IMG/VR virus record: IMGVR_UViG_3300027833_000228
Location: 1-23,097 of that record
Length of the DNA: 23,097 nt
Source: a virus
Strand: one strand, 5' to 3'
Part shown: positions 1 to 18,125 of the stretch, piece after piece
How positions within the stretch are numbered: the stretch's first letter is position 1
Layout: each line of letters starts with the position of its first letter
Notes under the pieces: generated by a model
Database searches by the model: none
Told to the model about the DNA's origin: nothing
Seen by the model: only the letters and a program-made list of their open reading frames with translations
Position numbers and translations under genes: made by a program

Positions 1-372
1 AGTGATATCTACATCTATCGCAGATGCATCACTTGATCCAACATATCCAATGTTCCAATCCCACGAATTACTATCTCCTGTGAAAAGAAGATTGTAAGTC
101 GAGCTATCAGCATCTATTGTACCAAAAAGTAAATTTTCATTACCTACTTGGTCAATATTAATGTTTAACGAAGAACCAGTAACAGACATAGGACTTGATG
201 AACTTGAAAAGTCATCTAATCCGATCTTGTTACCATAACCGTACTGGTCGATGTACAATGTTAATGTATCACCAGTTTGGTCAATGTTAATTTCGTTATC
301 ATCAGTTGCCTGAGCAATTGCGTTGAAAGAAAATAAACATAATAAAGATAAGCCTAATATTTTATGTTTCAT
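1..372 (-). CDS. Curlin-like (CsgA/CsgB-type) secreted fibre subunit, truncated by window start
   Basis: The reading frame starts at ATG 370-372 and stays open for 124 codons to base 1, so the C-terminus lies outside the window. Residues 1-22 form a classical Sec signal peptide: MKHK, a hydrophobic core, then NAIAQA with a likely cut after AIA or AQA. The mature part is Asn/Asp/Gln/Gly/Ser-rich and has curlin-type repeats: INIDQTGDTLTLYIDQYGYGN and, about 40 residues later, LNINIDQVGNENLLFG. These resemble the S-x5-Q-x-G-x-G-N-x-A-x3-Q repeat of CsgA/CsgB amyloid subunits, though they are degenerate. It overlaps the 3' end of csgG by 11 bp and has a weak SD (AGGG), so it is probably translated with csgG. 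I infer it is the substrate exported through the CsgG/CsgF pore. It could instead be a CsgB-like nucleator; the missing C-terminus prevents a choice. Confidence 0.72.
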   Translation of the reverse strand, partial: MKHKILGLSLLCLFSFNAIAQATDDNEINIDQTGDTLTLYIDQYGYGNKIGLDDFSSSSSPMSVTGSSLNINIDQVGNENLLFGTIDADSSTYNLLFTGDSNSWDWNIGYVGSSDASAIDVDIT

Positions 373-1345
373 TATTTTTCCCTTTTATTTTTTCATCAAG
401 GTTGTGCTTCTCGTTTGTTCCATCATGATCTTTTTGATGGGGGTGACGATGGCCAGCCTCGATTTCCCAGAACCCTCTATCGTGTCCTTGGTATACCATT
501 TCTAATACGGCAGCTTCTATAGCTGTTCGTACCGCATATGTCACTGATTCATTATTACCAACTCCGTCTTCATACTCAATTAACTGTGTTCCTTGTTCTA
601 TAAATCTAAATAAATCTCCGCCTGAGCCTACACTTAATACAGTTTTCCGAGTTTGAACATTCAATAATATTTCACCTGTTAATACTGAAACTGCACGTAT
701 TGAAACAGTAACTACGTCTTGTCGATATTGATTACTAAAACCAATACCTAGAGTTCTTGCTCCTCGTCCTCCAGTTCTAATATTACTATCATAACCAATA
801 ATTCCGCCTTCTATTATCATTCCTGCAAATAAAAGTGGACCAACACCAGTAGACGGTTTTTTCAGCTTCTTAGCTGCTTCGTCTCTAGTGGATCTTACAA
901 TCTGTCTTTCACGAACTAAGCCGTCAATACCTTCTCGTTCGACTACTCTAAACCATTTACCGTTTGCGGCTGTCTTTAAAGCATCAATTAATAATTCTGT
1001 TCCACCTTGTGTTACTGCGGTGGAGAAACTTTGTCCTGTCTGTGAATCTTTTCTTTGTCCTGTTTTATCTGCAAATCTATATACAGCAACGACTGGCATA
1101 GACTTAGCAGCTGGCAAAGCAAGTAAATCAATATACGAGGGCAGCTTAATAACTTCAGGCGCTTCTATGCATATTTGTTTACTTTCGGTGTATTGTCTTA
1201 CACCAGTATATAAATCTTTGCTCCACCCTTCTTTATATTGTCCTTGTCCATACTCACAATTAGCTGGTCCAGCTGACCACTGTGGCATTTGCGCACAACC
1301 AGTAAGGAATAATAGAAATAGGCTAGCCGCCGTCAGACGCATCAT
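362..1345 (-). CDS. csgG: CsgG-like curli secretion channel lipoprotein
   Basis: Product of 327 residues; E. coli CsgG is 277. CsgG forms a nine-subunit outer-membrane pore that exports curli subunits. Residues 1-17 are a lipoprotein signal with lipobox LTGC (Cys17). Blocks matching CsgG by eye are FADKTGQ (91-97), SFSTAV (106-111), a GGIIGYDSN-type segment (180-188), GARTLGIG (195-202), LTGEIL (222-227), LFRFIE (245-250) and HDRGFWE (288-294). Unusual parts are an extra stretch of roughly 30 residues after the lipid-modified Cys, containing Cys30 and Cys59, and a charged His/Lys-rich tail (about 295-327). An in-frame TTG at 1357 is possible, but ATG 1345 (or 1342) fits the GGGAG SD better. 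It overlaps csgF by 23 bp and the curlin-like gene by 11 bp, implying coupled translation. Confidence 0.93.
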   Translation of the reverse strand: MMRLTAASLFLLFLTGCAQMPQWSAGPANCEYGQGQYKEGWSKDLYTGVRQYTESKQICIEAPEVIKLPSYIDLLALPAAKSMPVVAVYRFADKTGQRKDSQTGQSFSTAVTQGGTELLIDALKTAANGKWFRVVEREGIDGLVRERQIVRSTRDEAAKKLKKPSTGVGPLLFAGMIIEGGIIGYDSNIRTGGRGARTLGIGFSNQYRQDVVTVSIRAVSVLTGEILLNVQTRKTVLSVGSGGDLFRFIEQGTQLIEYEDGVGNNESVTYAVRTAIEAAVLEMVYQGHDRGFWEIEAGHRHPHQKDHDGTNEKHNLDEKIKGKNNET

Positions 1346-1832
1346 CTCCACTCCCAAAATTTCCTGATCCTATAGGGATCTCAATAACTGTTGTTGAACC
1401 ATGCTCGTCAACAATTGTCATCTTAATAAATTCTTCACCATCCGCACCTGTTATGACTTCATAAGTTACAGTTGATCCTTCTAAAACAAAAGAACCAAAT
1501 CTAACTGGGTCGTCATTACTAAACATGTTATCAACTAACTGTTTTGATAACTGCGCATATATACGTGATTCTAAGTTTCTTATAAACTTGGCAAGAGTTG
1601 TATTTTCAGCAGCTCTTTGCGCTGCTCTTTCAGCAGCTTCCATTGCATCTTTAATTGCTTTCTTTCTGCCATGTTCTTGGTTTTCAACAGTTAGGTAGTG
1701 AGCCCCTGTTCCTATACCACTGAACGATGGATTTTTAAATCCGTGTACTATCGGTTCCGCCATTGTGTACTGAGCGCCGAAATACAAAATTAATATTAGA
1801 ATACCTAAACAGGTTCCATTAATTATTTTCAT
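1323..1832 (-). CDS. csgF: CsgF-like curli assembly factor
   Basis: Product of 169 residues. In E. coli CsgF is exported, plugs its N-terminus into the CsgG channel and helps place the CsgB nucleator. Residues 1-25 are a Sec signal peptide (hydrophobic ILILILYFG, cut after TMA). The mature N-terminus contains HGFKNPSFSG, matching the FxFRNPNFGG segment of E. coli CsgF that binds in the CsgG constriction. A middle helix rich in Ala, Glu and Arg (about 52-76) is followed by a segment like the CsgF helix that ends near GGLLS, then a beta-rich C-terminal part (TVTYEVITG..., STTVIEIPI). The C-terminal tail is Gly/Asp/Ser-rich. ATG 1832 is chosen over an upstream in-frame TTG because GAGGA lies six bases before it. 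It overlaps the upstream membrane-protein gene by 14 bp and csgG by 23 bp. Confidence 0.88.
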   Translation of the reverse strand: MKIINGTCLGILILILYFGAQYTMAEPIVHGFKNPSFSGIGTGAHYLTVENQEHGRKKAIKDAMEAAERAAQRAAENTTLAKFIRNLESRIYAQLSKQLVDNMFSNDDPVRFGSFVLEGSTVTYEVITGADGEEFIKMTIVDEHGSTTVIEIPIGSGNFGSGDDASDGG

Positions 1833-2124
1833 TTTTCTTCCTCTTTTTTCTTTCAAGCTCTTCTTCGGCCTTTTGAATAAGACCGTCCTTAGCTTTATAT
1901 TCTAAAACCACATTCACTTTCTGTTGCAATCTAATTAAGTCTTGATCTAACATTCGGACACGATCTATTACTTTAATTAATTGCATGTGATGTTTATCTA
2001 TAGCTGGTTGGATAGTTTCATTAATGAATTTCCAAACAAAATATACAAAATAACCTAAACCACAAACCATTATAGTAGGAAACCCGTATTCTTGCACTAT
2101 GGCAGCTATGTCTAATCCATCCAT
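1819..2124 (-). CDS. Small membrane protein with coiled coil, holin-like architecture
   Basis: Product of 101 residues. The N-terminus carries one hydrophobic segment (about residues 14-33, FPTIMVCGLGYFVYFVWKF), followed by an amphipathic helix with heptad-like spacing (about 40-75) and a very basic, Lys/Glu-rich tail (KAEEELERKKRKK). This single-membrane-segment plus coiled-coil layout recalls BhlA/UviB-type holin-like proteins and small membrane proteins of marine T4-like phages, but I see no diagnostic signature. It resembles the product of 2331-2627 in layout and in the G-[LF]-P motif before the membrane segment, so the two may be paralogues. It sits directly upstream of csgF and overlaps it by 14 bp. 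The function is unknown; a holin or a membrane anchor is an inference. Confidence 0.7.
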   Translation of the reverse strand: MDGLDIAAIVQEYGFPTIMVCGLGYFVYFVWKFINETIQPAIDKHHMQLIKVIDRVRMLDQDLIRLQQKVNVVLEYKAKDGLIQKAEEELERKKRKKNENN

Positions 2125-2127
2125 GTG

Positions 2128-2331
2128 TTAGAGGTCCAAGCTAAGTTGAACTTCCGACTTCTTAAAAAACATACATCCGTTTTGGTCTAACTCAAGCACA
2201 AACGAATCGCCAACATTTAAAGGCGTTCTGTCTATATTTACTTGGCTATGATCTTCTAGTGAAGAATTAACATCACTTAGCAGTAGCCCTTCTTCAGTTA
2301 TATCAAATTTGTAACCTACGTGCATTACCAT
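2128..2331 (-). CDS. Hypothetical 67-residue protein
   Basis: A small soluble acidic protein with no signal peptide or membrane segment. It has beta-like character (VGYKFDIT, DSFVLELD, CMFFKK) and I do not recognise a family. The start overlaps the stop of the preceding gene in a TAATG junction, and AAGGAG lies six bases before the first ATG, so translation is probably coupled. Three bases separate its stop from the next start. Its position between two membrane proteins of similar design, in the same late operon as csgF/csgG, is the only hint of function. Confidence 0.62.
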   Translation of the reverse strand: MVMHVGYKFDITEEGLLLSDVNSSLEDHSQVNIDRTPLNVGDSFVLELDQNGCMFFKKSEVQLSLDL

Positions 2332-2627
2332 TAGTCTCTCCTTACATCCACTTTTCCGTCTTCAATAAAATTTTCAGCTCTAGCTATACGATCGGTATCT
2401 GGTGTTAGTCCTAACGCTGAACTTACGAGTAAGTCGATCTTAATAATTTCGTTGCTCATGGACCTAGCTCGATTCTCCAAGCCCTCCGAAAATATTGTTA
2501 ATGTCTTAATACTATCAACGATTCCTTCAAAAATCTGTCTAATAATAATAAAGATAAAGAATCCCATTACAAGGGCGCCAGCAATCGGTAGGCCAACGTC
2601 TGAGATCAACTGCAAGATTTGTTCCAT
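2331..2627 (-). CDS. Small membrane protein, first gene of the curli/membrane late operon
   Basis: Product of 98 residues: a short N-terminal helix, then one long hydrophobic segment (about residues 13-32, LPIAGALVMGFFIFIIIRQI), then an amphipathic helical region (about 35-75) and a charged tail. From memory, proteins of this pattern (LISDVGLPIAGALV followed by a helix ending near SALGL) recur in T4-like marine phages without assigned function. It is similar in layout to the 101-residue protein two genes downstream. A GGAG SD lies six bases before ATG 2627, and a perfect TATAAATA late promoter lies about 37 bases upstream. Holin, antiholin or virion membrane protein are possible roles; none is proven here. 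Confidence 0.72.
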   Translation of the reverse strand: MEQILQLISDVGLPIAGALVMGFFIFIIIRQIFEGIVDSIKTLTIFSEGLENRARSMSNEIIKIDLLVSSALGLTPDTDRIARAENFIEDGKVDVRRD

Positions 2628-2663: not shown

Positions 2664-2671
2664 TATTTATA
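2664..2671 (-). promoter_or_regulatory. T4-type late promoter TATAAATA for the membrane/curli operon
   Basis: The minus strand reads TATAAATA, an exact match to the T4 late -10 element recognised by the gp55 sigma factor. It lies 37 bases before ATG 2627 in the divergent gap and points left. It is the only promoter-like sequence I see for the six-gene run down to base 1, which would make csgF, csgG and the curlin-like gene late genes. Confidence 0.7.
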
Positions 2672-5696: not shown

Positions 5697-5771
5697 GCTC
5701 CCTTCGTCTAGTGGTTAGGACACCGGGTTTTCATCTCGGCAACAGGAGTTCGACTCTCCTAGGGAGTACCA
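5697..5771 (+). tRNA. tRNA-Glu (anticodon UUC), CCA encoded
   Basis: A full 75-nt cloverleaf can be drawn. Acceptor GCTCCCT pairs with AGGGAGT, followed by A73 and an encoded CCA. The D arm is GTCT...GGAC, the anticodon arm is CCGGG-TTTTCAT-CTCGG giving UUC, the variable loop is CAAC, and the T arm is AGGAG-TTCGACT-CTCCT. Known E. coli GluRS identity features are present: U34-U35-C36-A37, U11-A24, U13-G22 with A46, and no base 47. Oddities are a G-U pair at 1-72 and A73 instead of G73. It lies between a small membrane-protein gene and hemC, on the same strand and probably in the same transcript. Confidence 0.96.
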
Positions 5772-5785
5772 ATTGAGACTATATT

Positions 5786-6613
5786 ATGATACCATTAGTT
5801 GGCACACGTAAATCTAAACTAGCACTTGCTTATACTGCACAAGCTCAAGAACAAATTCCATTTCAAACGAATACAATCTTAATAGATTCTACAGCAGATC
5901 TAAATCCAACGATCGCCATTGAAGAAATGGGTGGTAAAGGTGTATTCTCTAAAGAAATAGAGCAAAGTCTTATTGATGGTAATATTGACCTTGCTGTACA
6001 CGCCTTTAAAGATCTCACTCGAGATAACGAAGAACACCTGCATATACCCTGTGTGGTACCCAGAAATGACTACCACGACTGCCTTGTTGGTAACCATATT
6101 AACCCCCGTACTATAGGTACAAGTAGTCCTAGAAGGATCTACCAGTTACGAGAGTTATACCCACGGGCTGAGATCATTCCTATACGTGGGAATATAGATA
6201 CTCGGATTAATAAGCAGGAGAATGGAGAATACGACGCGATATGTTTAGCTAAAGCTGGACTCGATGCTCTAGGATTAGAAAATAAGATCAGTAAAGTATT
6301 TGGAACTGCTGATATGCTACCTGCGCCAGGTCAAGGTGTTATTGCTATACAAACACGTATTAATGACTACATATCAAAAACTCTGTCAAATGTTAACCAT
6401 TGGAAAACATGGTATGAATGTATGGCTGAAATGGAAATGCTCAGAGAAATTGACGGGGATTGCCAAACACCGATCGGTGTACTAACACATACAGATAACG
6501 GAAAAATCTTCATGGTTGCTAAAAACTTTGAAACCGATAAGATCGCGTATGTCAATGGTCCCATAAAAGAATATCAATCTATTGGTTCTAAAGCGGGCCT
6601 AAAACTCTTATAA
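5786..6613 (+). CDS. hemC: Hydroxymethylbilane synthase (porphobilinogen deaminase)
   Basis: Product of 275 residues; E. coli HemC is about 313. The enzyme joins four porphobilinogen units into hydroxymethylbilane, the third dedicated step of tetrapyrrole synthesis, in the cytosol. Conserved sites are present in order: GTRKSKLAL with Arg8; GGKGVFSKE (about 49-57) with the Lys at the cofactor site; HAFKD with Lys75 and the catalytic Asp76 (E. coli Asp84); GTSSPRR with Arg116/Arg117; RGNIDTR (134-140); NGEYDAI; LPAPGQG; and DGDCQTPIG with Cys226, the dipyrromethane cofactor cysteine (E. coli Cys242). The shortfall is mostly in the C-terminal domain. It starts 14 bp after tRNA-Glu with only a weak SD and ends convergent with gp23. 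As all catalytic residues are kept, I infer an active auxiliary metabolic gene. Confidence 0.95.
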   Translation: MIPLVGTRKSKLALAYTAQAQEQIPFQTNTILIDSTADLNPTIAIEEMGGKGVFSKEIEQSLIDGNIDLAVHAFKDLTRDNEEHLHIPCVVPRNDYHDCLVGNHINPRTIGTSSPRRIYQLRELYPRAEIIPIRGNIDTRINKQENGEYDAICLAKAGLDALGLENKISKVFGTADMLPAPGQGVIAIQTRINDYISKTLSNVNHWKTWYECMAEMEMLREIDGDCQTPIGVLTHTDNGKIFMVAKNFETDKIAYVNGPIKEYQSIGSKAGLKLL

Positions 6614-9803: not shown

Positions 9804-9811
9804 TATTTATA
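9804..9811 (-). promoter_or_regulatory. T4-type late promoter TATAAATA upstream of gp21
   Basis: An exact TATAAATA on the minus strand lies 22 bases before ATG 9782 in the short gap after the 74-residue gene. Position and sequence fit a late promoter for gp21-gp22-gp23. Confidence 0.7.
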
Positions 9812-10046: not shown

Positions 10047-11324
10047 TTAAACTCCAGCCTGAGTAGCAAATTTTAAGATTTCGCCAAATCCTTTTTTGTC
10101 TTTCATCATGTTAGTTTCCATCTCTTTACGATTTTTAGGATTTAATCCTTTCATCATCGCGTTGAGTGCCTTAACATCTTTAAAATCTAATTTAACCGAT
10201 TGACCATTCTTAAGTCTTATATTACCCGGCTTGAAATTGGCTTCTATTAAGGAGCTTTTTTTTTCTAAAGATTCTGTCTTAACACCAACAGATTTAGCTA
10301 ATCCTTTATGTACATCAGCAGCATCATCAGCATCACCGTAGTGACTTACAGCAAATTTCCAAACGTCTCTTGGTTCGCCACTTACAAATGCTTGTCCATC
10401 ACCGTGCATTGAGATTTTAACATTGAATCTTTTTTCTTGAGAAGCTTTTTGACTATCGCTACCAACAAAATCTACATCAATCTTAGATTCGCTTAAGTCA
10501 AACTTTTCTGTTATTTGACTAAACTCTTCAACTTCTTCATACATTCCTGAATTGATATATCCAGCTTCTAAATCAGTATCCATCACATCATCGTCATCGC
10601 CTTCAACATCGTCTTTGTCTAAGTCAATTGCTTTGTTTGTGATTTCGTTTCCTTTAGCATAAGCGTATAGGGATTTTACTTGACTAAATACTTGTGCTAA
10701 TTTTGACTGCCACCATTCTTCTGGATCCAAACCATCAATTTCTAAATACTCTTGGATTTCTTCAGAAGCGTAACATATAAAGTTGAGTTGTTTCATCATC
10801 ATTGAGACTTCTTCTTGGGGACTTTCCAGAAGATCTTCTGAATGAGATATTTTACTCATAAGACTTTTAAATGATATTGATTCTTTACTTTCGTTTTGGC
10901 GCTGAAGCACTGCAGCAACTTGAGGGTGTCTAGATAAACCTTTTGCAAGTTTATTGATAGCTGCAACTGCACCTGTCATATTACCACCGGCGTATCTCTT
11001 ATCAGAAGCAATACCAATTGCCATCTTAACTTCTCTATCAGAGAAGCGATCAATTCCTGACTCTTCAGATTCGTCTATATTACGGGGCATTTTAAACGGT
11101 TTAGCTTTTGCTGCAGCTCCACCATCATATTTTTTCTCGTCTTCACCGGCCTTTACATCAGCAAGCCTTTCCTTTTTTGTTTTACCAGGAATTTCTCCTG
11201 TGTGAACAAAGTCAGGCGCGACTGGGTGTTTTATTAATTCAATCTTATGCTGATCTTTAAATGCTCTCTCTTCCGGCGATTTTGGTTGCGCCACCTCAGA
11301 AAGCAGGTCTTTAAAGTTTTTCAT
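10047..11324 (-). CDS. Modular 425-residue protein between portal and prohead protease
   Basis: Visible blocks: an N-terminal MKNFKDLLSE helix; a basic/acidic linker; a module RFSDREVKMAIGIASDKRYAG continuing to LSRHPQVAAVLQRQNE (about 93-144); a helical module EVSMMMKQLNFICYASEEIQEYL continuing to WWQSKLAQVFSQVKSLYAYAKG (about 173-222); an acidic Asp-rich linker (about 235-251); a beta region (about 285-335); and a C-terminal module beginning IRLKNGQSVKLDFKDVKALN (about 369-420). From memory these modules appear in various combinations in marine T4-like phages. The product may be a head or core protein substituting for gp67/gp68; this is inferred from position only. Confidence 0.72.
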   Translation of the reverse strand: MKNFKDLLSEVAQPKSPEERAFKDQHKIELIKHPVAPDFVHTGEIPGKTKKERLADVKAGEDEKKYDGGAAAKAKPFKMPRNIDESEESGIDRFSDREVKMAIGIASDKRYAGGNMTGAVAAINKLAKGLSRHPQVAAVLQRQNESKESISFKSLMSKISHSEDLLESPQEEVSMMMKQLNFICYASEEIQEYLEIDGLDPEEWWQSKLAQVFSQVKSLYAYAKGNEITNKAIDLDKDDVEGDDDDVMDTDLEAGYINSGMYEEVEEFSQITEKFDLSESKIDVDFVGSDSQKASQEKRFNVKISMHGDGQAFVSGEPRDVWKFAVSHYGDADDAADVHKGLAKSVGVKTESLEKKSSLIEANFKPGNIRLKNGQSVKLDFKDVKALNAMMKGLNPKNRKEMETNMMKDKKGFGEILKFATQAGV

Positions 11325-11355
11325 ATTTAGTCCCTATTTAATCTTATCTAATCTA

Positions 11356-11363
11356 TATTTATT
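11356..11363 (-). promoter_or_regulatory. Late-promoter-like AATAAATA after gp20
   Basis: AATAAATA on the minus strand in the 57-bp gap between gp20 and the 425-residue gene, 32 bases before its start. It differs by one base from TATAAATA; support is its placement at the usual distance from a start codon. Confidence 0.4.
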
Positions 11364-11381
11364 ATCAATTTAAATTCGTTT

Positions 11382-12911
11382 TTAGAAAGAAGTGTCATCT
11401 TCAGCTTCATCATCTGGGGCTTCTGCCTTTTCTTTCTCCATCTGATCAGTCATATCCATAAATTCTTCTTCTGTAATCTGAAGGATATTTCTAATAACCC
11501 ATTCTCTTGAATAATATTTTCCAATGTGATCTTCAATATCTCTGAGAGTAGTCATACGCTCACGTAATATTTCGGATTGTTTTAACTCATCGTAATAATT
11601 ATCCCTAGCAAATTCATATCGGATATCGTTACGTATGGCATCAAATTCTTCAGGTGTTAAAACACCTTTTAAAATCAACTGTTTCTCTAGGATAATACTA
11701 AACAACCAAGAAAAACGTGATCTAATTCTCTTAATAAACTTACCAAACTTAAGTTCATCACGTGTAATTTCTGAAGCTCTACCAAAGGTCGCTTGACTCT
11801 CTGGCTCTAAACGCGTTAAAGGTACTTTCAGCGCTTTATATAATTTGCGTTGGAAGTACAACATGTTTGTGTCATCACTTAAACCAGCAGCTGAGCCTCC
11901 GGCTAGTGTATCAACTTCAGTTGTTCGTTCACCACCTCTTCGTGGGAACCAAAAATCTTCTGTCATTGTCATCATTTTGCGAGAATCATTAATCTCACCA
12001 GTTGATGAATTATATTGAAGCTTATTCTTGTGGCGAGTCATCATATCTCTAAGATATTGCTCTGCCTTAGCTTTCGGTAAATTACCGACATCAATATAAA
12101 AAATTCTTCTTTCAGGCGCTCTTGTTAGTGTGTAAATAACAGTAGCATCTTCTAACATACGTAGTTGGTTTAGCGGCTTGATCGCAGGATGTAAATGAGA
12201 TAGTACTAAACTATTATTCTCATTCATTAAACCCGATGTTACTCGAGCTACACTATCCTTAGTAATCTTAAAGCCTTGAGCTGAACCATCACCACCAGAC
12301 TTAGAAGAACCAAAACCATTTTCTGAGTACATATAATACTCATTCTTGATCTTCTTAGTTGGGACACCACTGTGTGGATCCTTACTCTTCTTATCAACTT
12401 CTCGTATTAATTTTAGTTTTCTAGGATCGCAGTATCTTATTTCTGCAATACCTTTTTTCAAATCCTTAGGATTAATAACTATGTGATAGTTTAATCTACC
12501 ATCAACATAGAACTTGTGAAACATATCATAACCATTATTAGCTATGTCCATCATGGCCAATACGTTATCAAATTCTTCTGTAATACGTTCCTTTACTTTA
12601 TCAGGCAAGTCAGCCTCACCTAAAGTAATCTTAACAACACTTTCATCAATATCAACAGATATCGCTTCGTTAACTACGTCGTCAATAGCCTGAGCAATTT
12701 CAGGCTGCATGGCCATATTTCTATACTTAGTGATCAGTTCAGATTCAGACTTAGCTGCACCTTCCATATCAAGTATAGTACTATAAAAACCACCAAGTGA
12801 ATTACCACTAACGGTAATCGCACCATCATCATTTTGAGGTGCCACAAAAGAGGCAACATCATTGCTAACCTCGTCTTGTGGCCTCTTTATTTCAAAGCCA
12901 AATAATTTCAT
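11382..12911 (-). CDS. 20: Portal vertex protein gp20
   Basis: Product of 509 residues; T4 gp20 is 524. Twelve copies form the portal through which DNA enters the head and to which the neck attaches. Typical gp20 segments are EITKYRNMA-like LITKYRNMAMQPEIAQAIDDVVNEAI (about 58-83), LNYHIVINPKDLKKGI, EIRYCDPRKLKLIRE, APERRIFYIDVGNLPK, DFWFPRRGGERTTEVDTL, and FGRASEITRDELKFGKFI. The C-terminus is acidic. The gene lies in T4 order after gp18 and gp19. The start is ATG 12911, 15 bp after the gp19 stop. Confidence 0.97.
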   Translation of the reverse strand: MKLFGFEIKRPQDEVSNDVASFVAPQNDDGAITVSGNSLGGFYSTILDMEGAAKSESELITKYRNMAMQPEIAQAIDDVVNEAISVDIDESVVKITLGEADLPDKVKERITEEFDNVLAMMDIANNGYDMFHKFYVDGRLNYHIVINPKDLKKGIAEIRYCDPRKLKLIREVDKKSKDPHSGVPTKKIKNEYYMYSENGFGSSKSGGDGSAQGFKITKDSVARVTSGLMNENNSLVLSHLHPAIKPLNQLRMLEDATVIYTLTRAPERRIFYIDVGNLPKAKAEQYLRDMMTRHKNKLQYNSSTGEINDSRKMMTMTEDFWFPRRGGERTTEVDTLAGGSAAGLSDDTNMLYFQRKLYKALKVPLTRLEPESQATFGRASEITRDELKFGKFIKRIRSRFSWLFSIILEKQLILKGVLTPEEFDAIRNDIRYEFARDNYYDELKQSEILRERMTTLRDIEDHIGKYYSREWVIRNILQITEEEFMDMTDQMEKEKAEAPDDEAEDDTSF

Positions 12912-15471: not shown

Positions 15472-15479
15472 TATTTATA
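15472..15479 (-). promoter_or_regulatory. T4-type late promoter TATAAATA upstream of gp18
   Basis: An exact TATAAATA on the minus strand in the 94-bp gap between gp17 and gp18, 62 bases before ATG 15410. It would give separate high late expression of sheath, tube and portal genes. Confidence 0.7.
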
Positions 15480-17622: not shown

Positions 17623-17715
17623 TTATGACCTTCTCTGACCTGTAAATATTAGCCACCATTTAAACCATCTGCGGCCTTCACCATAAGCTGCTGATCTTAG
17701 TCTGTCGTATTTCAT
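17623..17715 (-). CDS. Possible 30-residue basic, Trp-rich peptide
   Basis: The frame begins at ATG 17715 in an ATGA overlap with the stop of the cytidylyltransferase-like gene and ends at TAA 17623-17625, seven bases before gp16. The product starts MKYDRLRSAAYGEGRRWFKWW and continues LIFTGQRRS. It carries eight Lys/Arg, three Trp, and the cluster RRWFKWWLIF, which could sit at a membrane or bind nucleic acid. It fills exactly the gap between the two genes and would be translated by coupling. Length is too short for statistical proof. Confidence 0.4.
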   Translation of the reverse strand: MKYDRLRSAAYGEGRRWFKWWLIFTGQRRS

Positions 17716-18125
17716 TTAAGGGCGCAAGCTTTTCTTAGCCCAGAAGTACTAAACCTGTGATCTCTTTTATTAAAATATAGTTCAATATCACGTTTTCGAC
17801 AAATATCTTTACCAGTAAACTCTTTATCTCTATATTCATCACCTAAAATACGAACATCAATATGATACAATTCTAATATATCTTCGAGATCTTGTTCTGT
17901 GTTATAAGGTATAATCTCATCAACATATGATATTGCCTTGAGTTGTGTATATCTTTCAACAATTGTTTGTATAGGCGGGTTTTTGTCTTTTGGTCTATCT
18001 CTAGCAGGATCCATTTGTAATCCTACCATTAAATAGTCGCATTGCGCTTTTGCATCTCTTAACATTTGCACGTGTCCTGCATGTAACAAATCAAACGCGC
18101 TACATGTAAATCCAATTCTACTCAT
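17712..18125 (-). CDS. Cytidylyltransferase-like (TagD-type) nucleotidyltransferase
   Basis: Product of 137 residues, close to the 130-residue glycerol-3-phosphate cytidylyltransferases. It has the HxGH nucleotidyltransferase motif in GFTCSAFDLLHAGHVQML (HAGH at 15-18), a basic-proline loop RPKDKNPP (44-51), ERYTQLKAISYVDEIIP, VRILGDEY (91-98) and RFSTSGLR (124-131), the counterpart of the ISTTxLR signature. Family enzymes join CTP or ATP to phosphorylated alcohols or sugars; the substrate here is unknown. Such genes recur in T4-like marine phages near the terminase, from memory. It interrupts the late block between gp15 and gp16 and has its own consensus sigma70 promoter, so it is probably expressed early. 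A possible 30-residue gene overlaps its stop. Confidence 0.88.
   Translation of the reverse strand: MSRIGFTCSAFDLLHAGHVQMLRDAKAQCDYLMVGLQMDPARDRPKDKNPPIQTIVERYTQLKAISYVDEIIPYNTEQDLEDILELYHIDVRILGDEYRDKEFTGKDICRKRDIELYFNKRDHRFSTSGLRKACALK

Follow-up and report, generated by a model that had tools for sequence, protein, structure and literature searches.

A predicted late-expressed type VIII secretion module with degenerate curlins in a T4-like phage

Introduction

T4-like phages that carry homologues of the curli genes csgG and csgF raise the question of whether such a locus provides a bare pore or a system that exports a substrate of its own, and what a phage would gain from it. Phage CsgF and CsgG were first reported, together with "sibling capture," by Zaragoza-Solas in 2020 (PMC7029224). 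Buchholz (2022, PMC9004378) proposed a lysis pore, or "pinholin," and described phage Melnitz as being without fiber genes. Wittmers (2022, PMC9599517) described complete modules with curlin repeats, FecR, a cyclase, and genes labeled "HK." Here we analyzed a 23,097-bp linear virus record (the window), a T4-like phage region in which the end of the record falls inside the gene for a curlin-repeat protein, curlin 1.

Results

Gene layout of the operon

The csgF, csgG, and curlin-like genes lie next to each other on the minus strand and overlap, as the original prediction had described them (Table 1); the csgG gene shares 11 nt and 23 nt with its neighbors. The operon starts at position 2627 with two genes for small membrane proteins, TM1 and TM2, and runs on past base 1. 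The description of the virus as T4-like was also borne out, since the tail sheath, tail tube, portal, head protease, major head protein, terminase, and head-tail connectors around the operon gave strong PHROGs matches. The predicted set of three genes was therefore present and yet incomplete, in that the membrane pair and late promoter upstream and the FecR, curlin 2, and cyclase genes downstream had been missed. The downstream genes were read in a relative, L004, which reaches 7.5 kb further; its CsgG is 93% identical to that of the window, and its DNA is about 85-93% identical along shared stretches. The gene order in L004 is TM1, a 66-aa protein, TM2, CsgF, CsgG, curlin 1, a FecR-domain protein, curlin 2, HemE, and a CHASE2-adenylate cyclase.

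Table 1. Features of the curli-type operon in the window
Feature	Position	Strand	Remarks
Curlin 1 (secreted curlin-repeat protein), first 124 aa	1-372	-	ATG at 372; signal peptide about 1-20; gene cut by contig end
CsgG, outer-membrane lipoprotein pore	362-1345	-	Lipobox LTGC; Pfam CsgG 1.2e-51
CsgF, pore partner/chaperone	1323-1832	-	Pfam CsgF 9.6e-14
TM2, 101-aa small membrane protein, coiled tail, TM1 paralogue	1819-2124	-	phrog_18771
67-aa protein, function unassigned	2128-2331	-	Window's closest relatives only (8 loci)
TM1, 98-aa small membrane protein, first operon gene	2331-2627	-	phrog_18771
TATAAATA, T4-type late promoter element	2664-2671	-	37 nt upstream of TM1

Pore proteins

HMM searches identified CsgG and CsgF as the families that had been named from the sequence (Table 1). 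The phage CsgG aligns to the E. coli CsgG structure 4uv3 over 71-301 (E 1.9e-46), and its lipid-attachment Cys is invariant in 13 phage sequences. Compared with that of E. coli, the constriction loop has one additional residue and keeps the Phe of the SFST/NFST motif. CsgF keeps the N-terminal pore-binding motif, as F-K-N-P-S-F-S-G (INPxFGG in bacterial homologues); a PDB sequence search with CsgF gave nothing useful. No match to CsgE, CsgC, or CsgD was found among the ORFs of the L004 module, and published alphaproteobacterial modules are also without these three proteins (PMC9599517).

Curlin 1 and curlin 2 as candidate substrates

The curlin 1 fragment in the window matches Pfam Curlin_rpt at 2.1e-4 (21.6 bits; cut-off, 20.7), and 16 of 17 curlin 1 orthologues match it at an E value of ≤0.01. 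Relative to shuffles, the pattern Q.G..N occurs twice where 0.0 is expected, and [ILVFM].[ILVFM].Q occurs three times where 0.2 is expected. The full-length protein in L004 (243 aa, 10976-11707) carries G..N turns at residues 51, 77, 99, 125, 151, and 173, so that the degenerate series continues beyond base 1, as had been anticipated. This protein matches the NCBIfam CsgA model at 8.4e-9 in three stretches, far below the equivalog cut-off of that model. AF2 predicted all-beta folds with regular strand-turn-strand ladders for both curlins at moderate pLDDT (74 for curlin 1 and 76 for curlin 2). When the family profiles were compared with the whole PDB, E. coli CsgA (8enq) ranked first for both, weakly in each case (E 0.012 for curlin 2 and 0.19 for curlin 1). 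Foldseek searches of the PDB with the curlin models gave no significant match (best E, 0.08-0.14), the weak ones often being beta-solenoids, and a PDB sequence search with single curlin 1 gave nothing useful. On the basis of the Curlin_rpt and CsgA matches, the repeat statistics, the AF2 ladders, and the PDB profile ranking, we conclude that curlin 1 and curlin 2 are degenerate curlins, and we infer that they may form fibers. Since the repeats continue past base 1, the CsgA model scores, and the prediction is all-beta, neither of the outcomes that would speak against the original prediction (no further repeats and no solenoid-like fold, or a pore outside the CsgG family) was obtained.

Two conserved Cys residues lie near the C terminus of curlin 1 in the window's clade, and curlin 2 of L002, L003, and L004 ends in a conserved Cys pair of the C-x-TVGGC type; both are possible disulfide caps.

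Conservation of the module

A scan of IMG/VR with CsgG gave 373 relatives, 80 of which were kept. Linkage was assessed in 163 CsgG loci from two scans, including HTVC008M, Melnitz, and the window; the set holds some near-duplicates, and each gene was counted at loci with sufficient flanks. CsgF was retained in 147 of 147 such loci, a curlin gene was next to CsgG in 131 of 131, FecR was found in 96 of 96, and the cyclase was found in 63 of 64. The proposal that a curlin-type substrate makes the locus more than a bare pore is upheld by this linkage and by the Curlin_rpt score above the cut-off. The implied newness of a linked substrate is not, because one is already present in HTVC008M, where it is annotated as CsgB-like, and in Melnitz, where the annotation is curlin repeat, and complete modules were described by Wittmers et al. 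in 2022. We reject the bare-pore reading of Buchholz et al. as a general one, because no testable locus has CsgG without a curlin gene after it and the GenBank record of Melnitz annotates two curlin-repeat genes.

The window adds a further example to the type VIII secretion modules already published for pelagiphages, from a lineage separate from those of HTVC008M and Melnitz. All are T4-like and share the order TM1-TM2-CsgF-CsgG-curlin 1-FecR-curlin 2-cyclase, whereas the window's group has two additional genes, HemE ahead of the cyclase and HemC upstream. Like E. coli curli (csgBAC-DEFG), the phage module has CsgG and CsgF homologues, a lipoprotein pore, and a curlin-repeat substrate. In contrast to E. 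coli curli, no CsgE, CsgC, or CsgD is seen, the curlin repeats are more degenerate, and FecR, the cyclase, and the TM pair are added.

A paralogous membrane pair accompanies CsgG

TM1 and TM2 are paralogues (hhalign probability, 97) of 92-115 aa, each with a single TM and a charged coiled tail. The pair is upstream of CsgG in all 147 loci with enough upstream DNA; in at least five loci of the HTVC008M type, TM1 is between CsgF and CsgG rather than first. When TM1 was used as the scan query, 80 loci were recovered; CsgG is present in 71 of them, and the remaining 9 are cut off before it could be seen. Among 50,697 phage records, the only ones with TM1/TM2 are the six that contain both CsgF and a CsgG of the marine phage kind. 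The only apparent exception is L098, a 6.9-kb contig binned as Pirellulales, in which csgF-csgG-curlin has no TM pair upstream; judged by eye, it is phage-like, with Hsp20-like, ClpS-like, and heme-oxygenase-like genes.

Two same-sized hypothetical proteins had been noted previously (PMC7029224) and correspond by size and position to HTVC008M gp011/gp012. Since they share the position, are short, and occur in one or two copies, the genes labeled "HK" in PMC9599517 are inferred to be TM1/TM2. The identification as histidine kinases was rejected, given the length of 92-115 aa, no Pfam kinase match, and no catalytic domain. TM1/TM2 were also rejected as equivalents of CsgA/CsgB, being membrane proteins without curlin repeats. 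Holins such as phrog_4898 are likewise small, with one TM near the N terminus and a charged coiled tail, but the profile similarity is weak (TM2, best 1.1e-4, 3 of 10 members; TM1, 0.013, 2 of 10 members) and could be a generic TM-coil likeness. Weak matches of the TM proteins to models of ATP synthase b and T2SS M were also obtained, and, unlike these holins, TM1 and TM2 form a paralogous pair tied to CsgG.

The operon is predicted to be expressed late

Of 137 distinct loci, 86 have the T4 late promoter core, TATAAATA, in the 120 nt preceding TM1, compared with a mean of 2 and a maximum of 6 in shuffles. The core also lies upstream of CsgF in 32 of 118 loci (shuffles, about 2), and in the same locus survey it was absent before CsgG, curlin 1, and FecR. 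On the minus strand of the window it occurs three times, ahead of TM1 (Table 1), the head protease (9804-9811), and the tail sheath (15472-15479). TATAAAT is a known T4-like late promoter, as used in PMC9004378. Because TATAAATA precedes TM1 as it does the tail sheath and head protease genes, we predict that the curli operon is expressed late.

A perfect sigma-70 consensus (TTGACA-17-TATAAT) lies on the minus strand of L004 (13671-13699), 25-32 nt from the 3' end of curlin 2, into which it points in the antisense direction. It is in the same place in L007, L008, and L014 and absent in L019, L020, L024, and L032. This site could give rise to an early antisense RNA over the late operon.

FecR-domain protein

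The phage FecR protein has a signal-peptide-like start followed directly by the FecR domain, with no further hydrophobic segment. An iron regulator of the FecI/FecR/FecA kind was rejected because the topology is wrong, without a cytoplasmic anti-sigma N-domain and TM. From its sequence, the FecR-domain protein looks exported rather than regulatory for iron. The L004 protein (11661-12827) contains a region of acidic LDxDxL repeats, and it has a weak match to the surface adhesin Lsa33 (6.3e-8).

Lineage and bacterial counterparts

The CsgG of the window is only 43-47% identical to those of HTVC008M and Melnitz and falls in a separate clade (SH-aLRT 97, quick tree). The nearest MCP/terminase sequences are those of the Sinorhizobium phages phiM12/phiN3 (65%/58%); among the curli phages, Melnitz is next (64%/51%). 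These affinities lean toward the alphaproteobacterial T4-like phages.

A CsgG search of genome contigs returned, as best matches, mostly phage contigs binned into MAGs. Two loci from Caulobacteraceae MAGs, L090 and L091 (83-kb and 32-kb contigs), carry csgF-csgG-curlin-curlin-FecR-CHASE2 cyclase in one run, with CsgG 56-58% identical. They differ from the phage module in having both curlins before FecR, no TM1/TM2, and bacterial flanks (phosphoesterase, amidohydrolase, acyl-CoA dehydrogenase; glycosyltransferases, peptidase, TonB receptor). In a quick tree, the CsgG sequences of phages and Caulobacteraceae group together (SH-aLRT 97). Five other alphaproteobacterial csg loci have curlins, and the phage models for FecR and the cyclase gave no match in them. 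L090 and L091 contradict the published statement (PMC9599517) that bacterial T8SS operons contain neither FecR nor the cyclase. The simplest reading is that a phage would have taken over a bacterial csg-FecR-cyclase locus and then added TM1/TM2. The literature searched held no report of the late-promoter statistic, an obligate paralogous pair, or a bacterial FecR-cyclase csg locus. The late promoter, the paralogous small membrane pair, and the Caulobacteraceae csg-FecR-cyclase loci are newly tied to the known module here.

Possible functions of the module

We favor, with somewhat better than even confidence, late export of curlins from the infected cell. Late in infection, both curlins would cross the inner membrane via the host Sec system, be released through the CsgG-CsgF pore of the phage, and form curli-like fibers on the infected cell. 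TM1/TM2 would act in the inner membrane as a pair, specific to phages, that assists export or sets its timing, and the exported FecR-domain protein and CHASE2 cyclase may be an envelope-sensing pair that the module kept from its bacterial ancestor. The benefit would most likely be a pre-lysis fiber coat that glues neighboring cells, debris, and progeny together or shields the dying cell. Given the late timing, aggregation of cells, debris, and progeny seems the likeliest purpose, a tentative assignment that we hold at clearly less than even confidence; cultures of Melnitz showed no clumping (Buchholz et al., PMC9004378), which counts against it. The degenerate curlin repeats, the Foldseek searches with no significant match, and the fact that no CsgE or CsgC is seen are points against late export. 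If late export is correct, marine phages that are very common cause the cells they infect to produce functional-amyloid fibers as infection ends, a capacity that is not encoded by the known hosts themselves.

The main rival couples the module to lysis, because the TM proteins weakly resemble holins. TM1/TM2 would be a holin/antiholin-like inner-membrane pair, CsgG, with or without fibers, would open the outer membrane, and the module would time or execute release. This idea extends the pinholin proposal of Buchholz et al. and fits the late promoter, the small single-TM paralogous pair that is nearly always first in the operon, and the phrog_4898 matches; apart from "pinholin," the word "holin" does not occur in the text of the Melnitz paper (PMC9004378). 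We nevertheless regard it as unlikely, since the holin match is weak and the TM-plus-coil shape shared with ATP synthase b and T2SS M could explain it, CsgG is sited in the outer rather than the inner membrane, and lysis has no need for the universal linkage of curlin, FecR, and cyclase. An elaborate form, which we hold to be rather doubtful, is that TM1/TM2 are an unrecognized holin/antiholin-like pair whose inner-membrane holes, with the CsgG pore and secreted amyloid, make a late release device, with progeny ending up attached to or enclosed in a mesh of amyloid after lysis.

Early superinfection exclusion or surface masking, in which the fiber coat blocks rival phages during infection, was proposed by Wittmers et al. 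(PMC9599517) and agrees with the surface-exposed fiber expected from the module. We consider it decidedly improbable, because the late promoter points to expression with the structural genes, which leaves little time for a protective coat. The curlin genes would be incidental if CsgG served as an open channel importing nutrients or cofactors, as proposed in PMC7029224 and PMC9599517 and in keeping with a module without the CsgE gate gene. Uptake is very improbable: neither the curlin after CsgG nor the CsgF kept at every testable locus is needed for it, and import would be of little use at so late a time. With the late promoter and the obligate membrane pair, the aggregation, exclusion, uptake, and lysis ideas can be told apart by timing and by the effects of gene removal on lysis, clumping, and fibers.

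Heme biosynthesis and other accessory genes

In the window, a tRNA-Glu(TTC) gene on the plus strand (5697-5771) is directly followed by HemC (5786-6613, plus strand), a hydroxymethylbilane synthase (TIGR00212, 8.7e-72) found in 13 loci of the window's group. HemC matches in the phage collection were only 31-37% identical and look like bacterial DNA in phage-labeled records; porphobilinogen deaminase has been mentioned for deep pelagimyophages (PMC7029224). HemE, a uroporphyrinogen decarboxylase (L004, 13730-14671), is flanked in 12 loci by curlin 2 and the cyclase and had no convincing match in isolated phages. Where the flank allows, HemE carriers are nearly always HemC carriers too. Amid the structural genes, the window also encodes a cytidylyltransferase-like protein (17712-18125, minus strand; CTP_transf_like, 6.4e-13).
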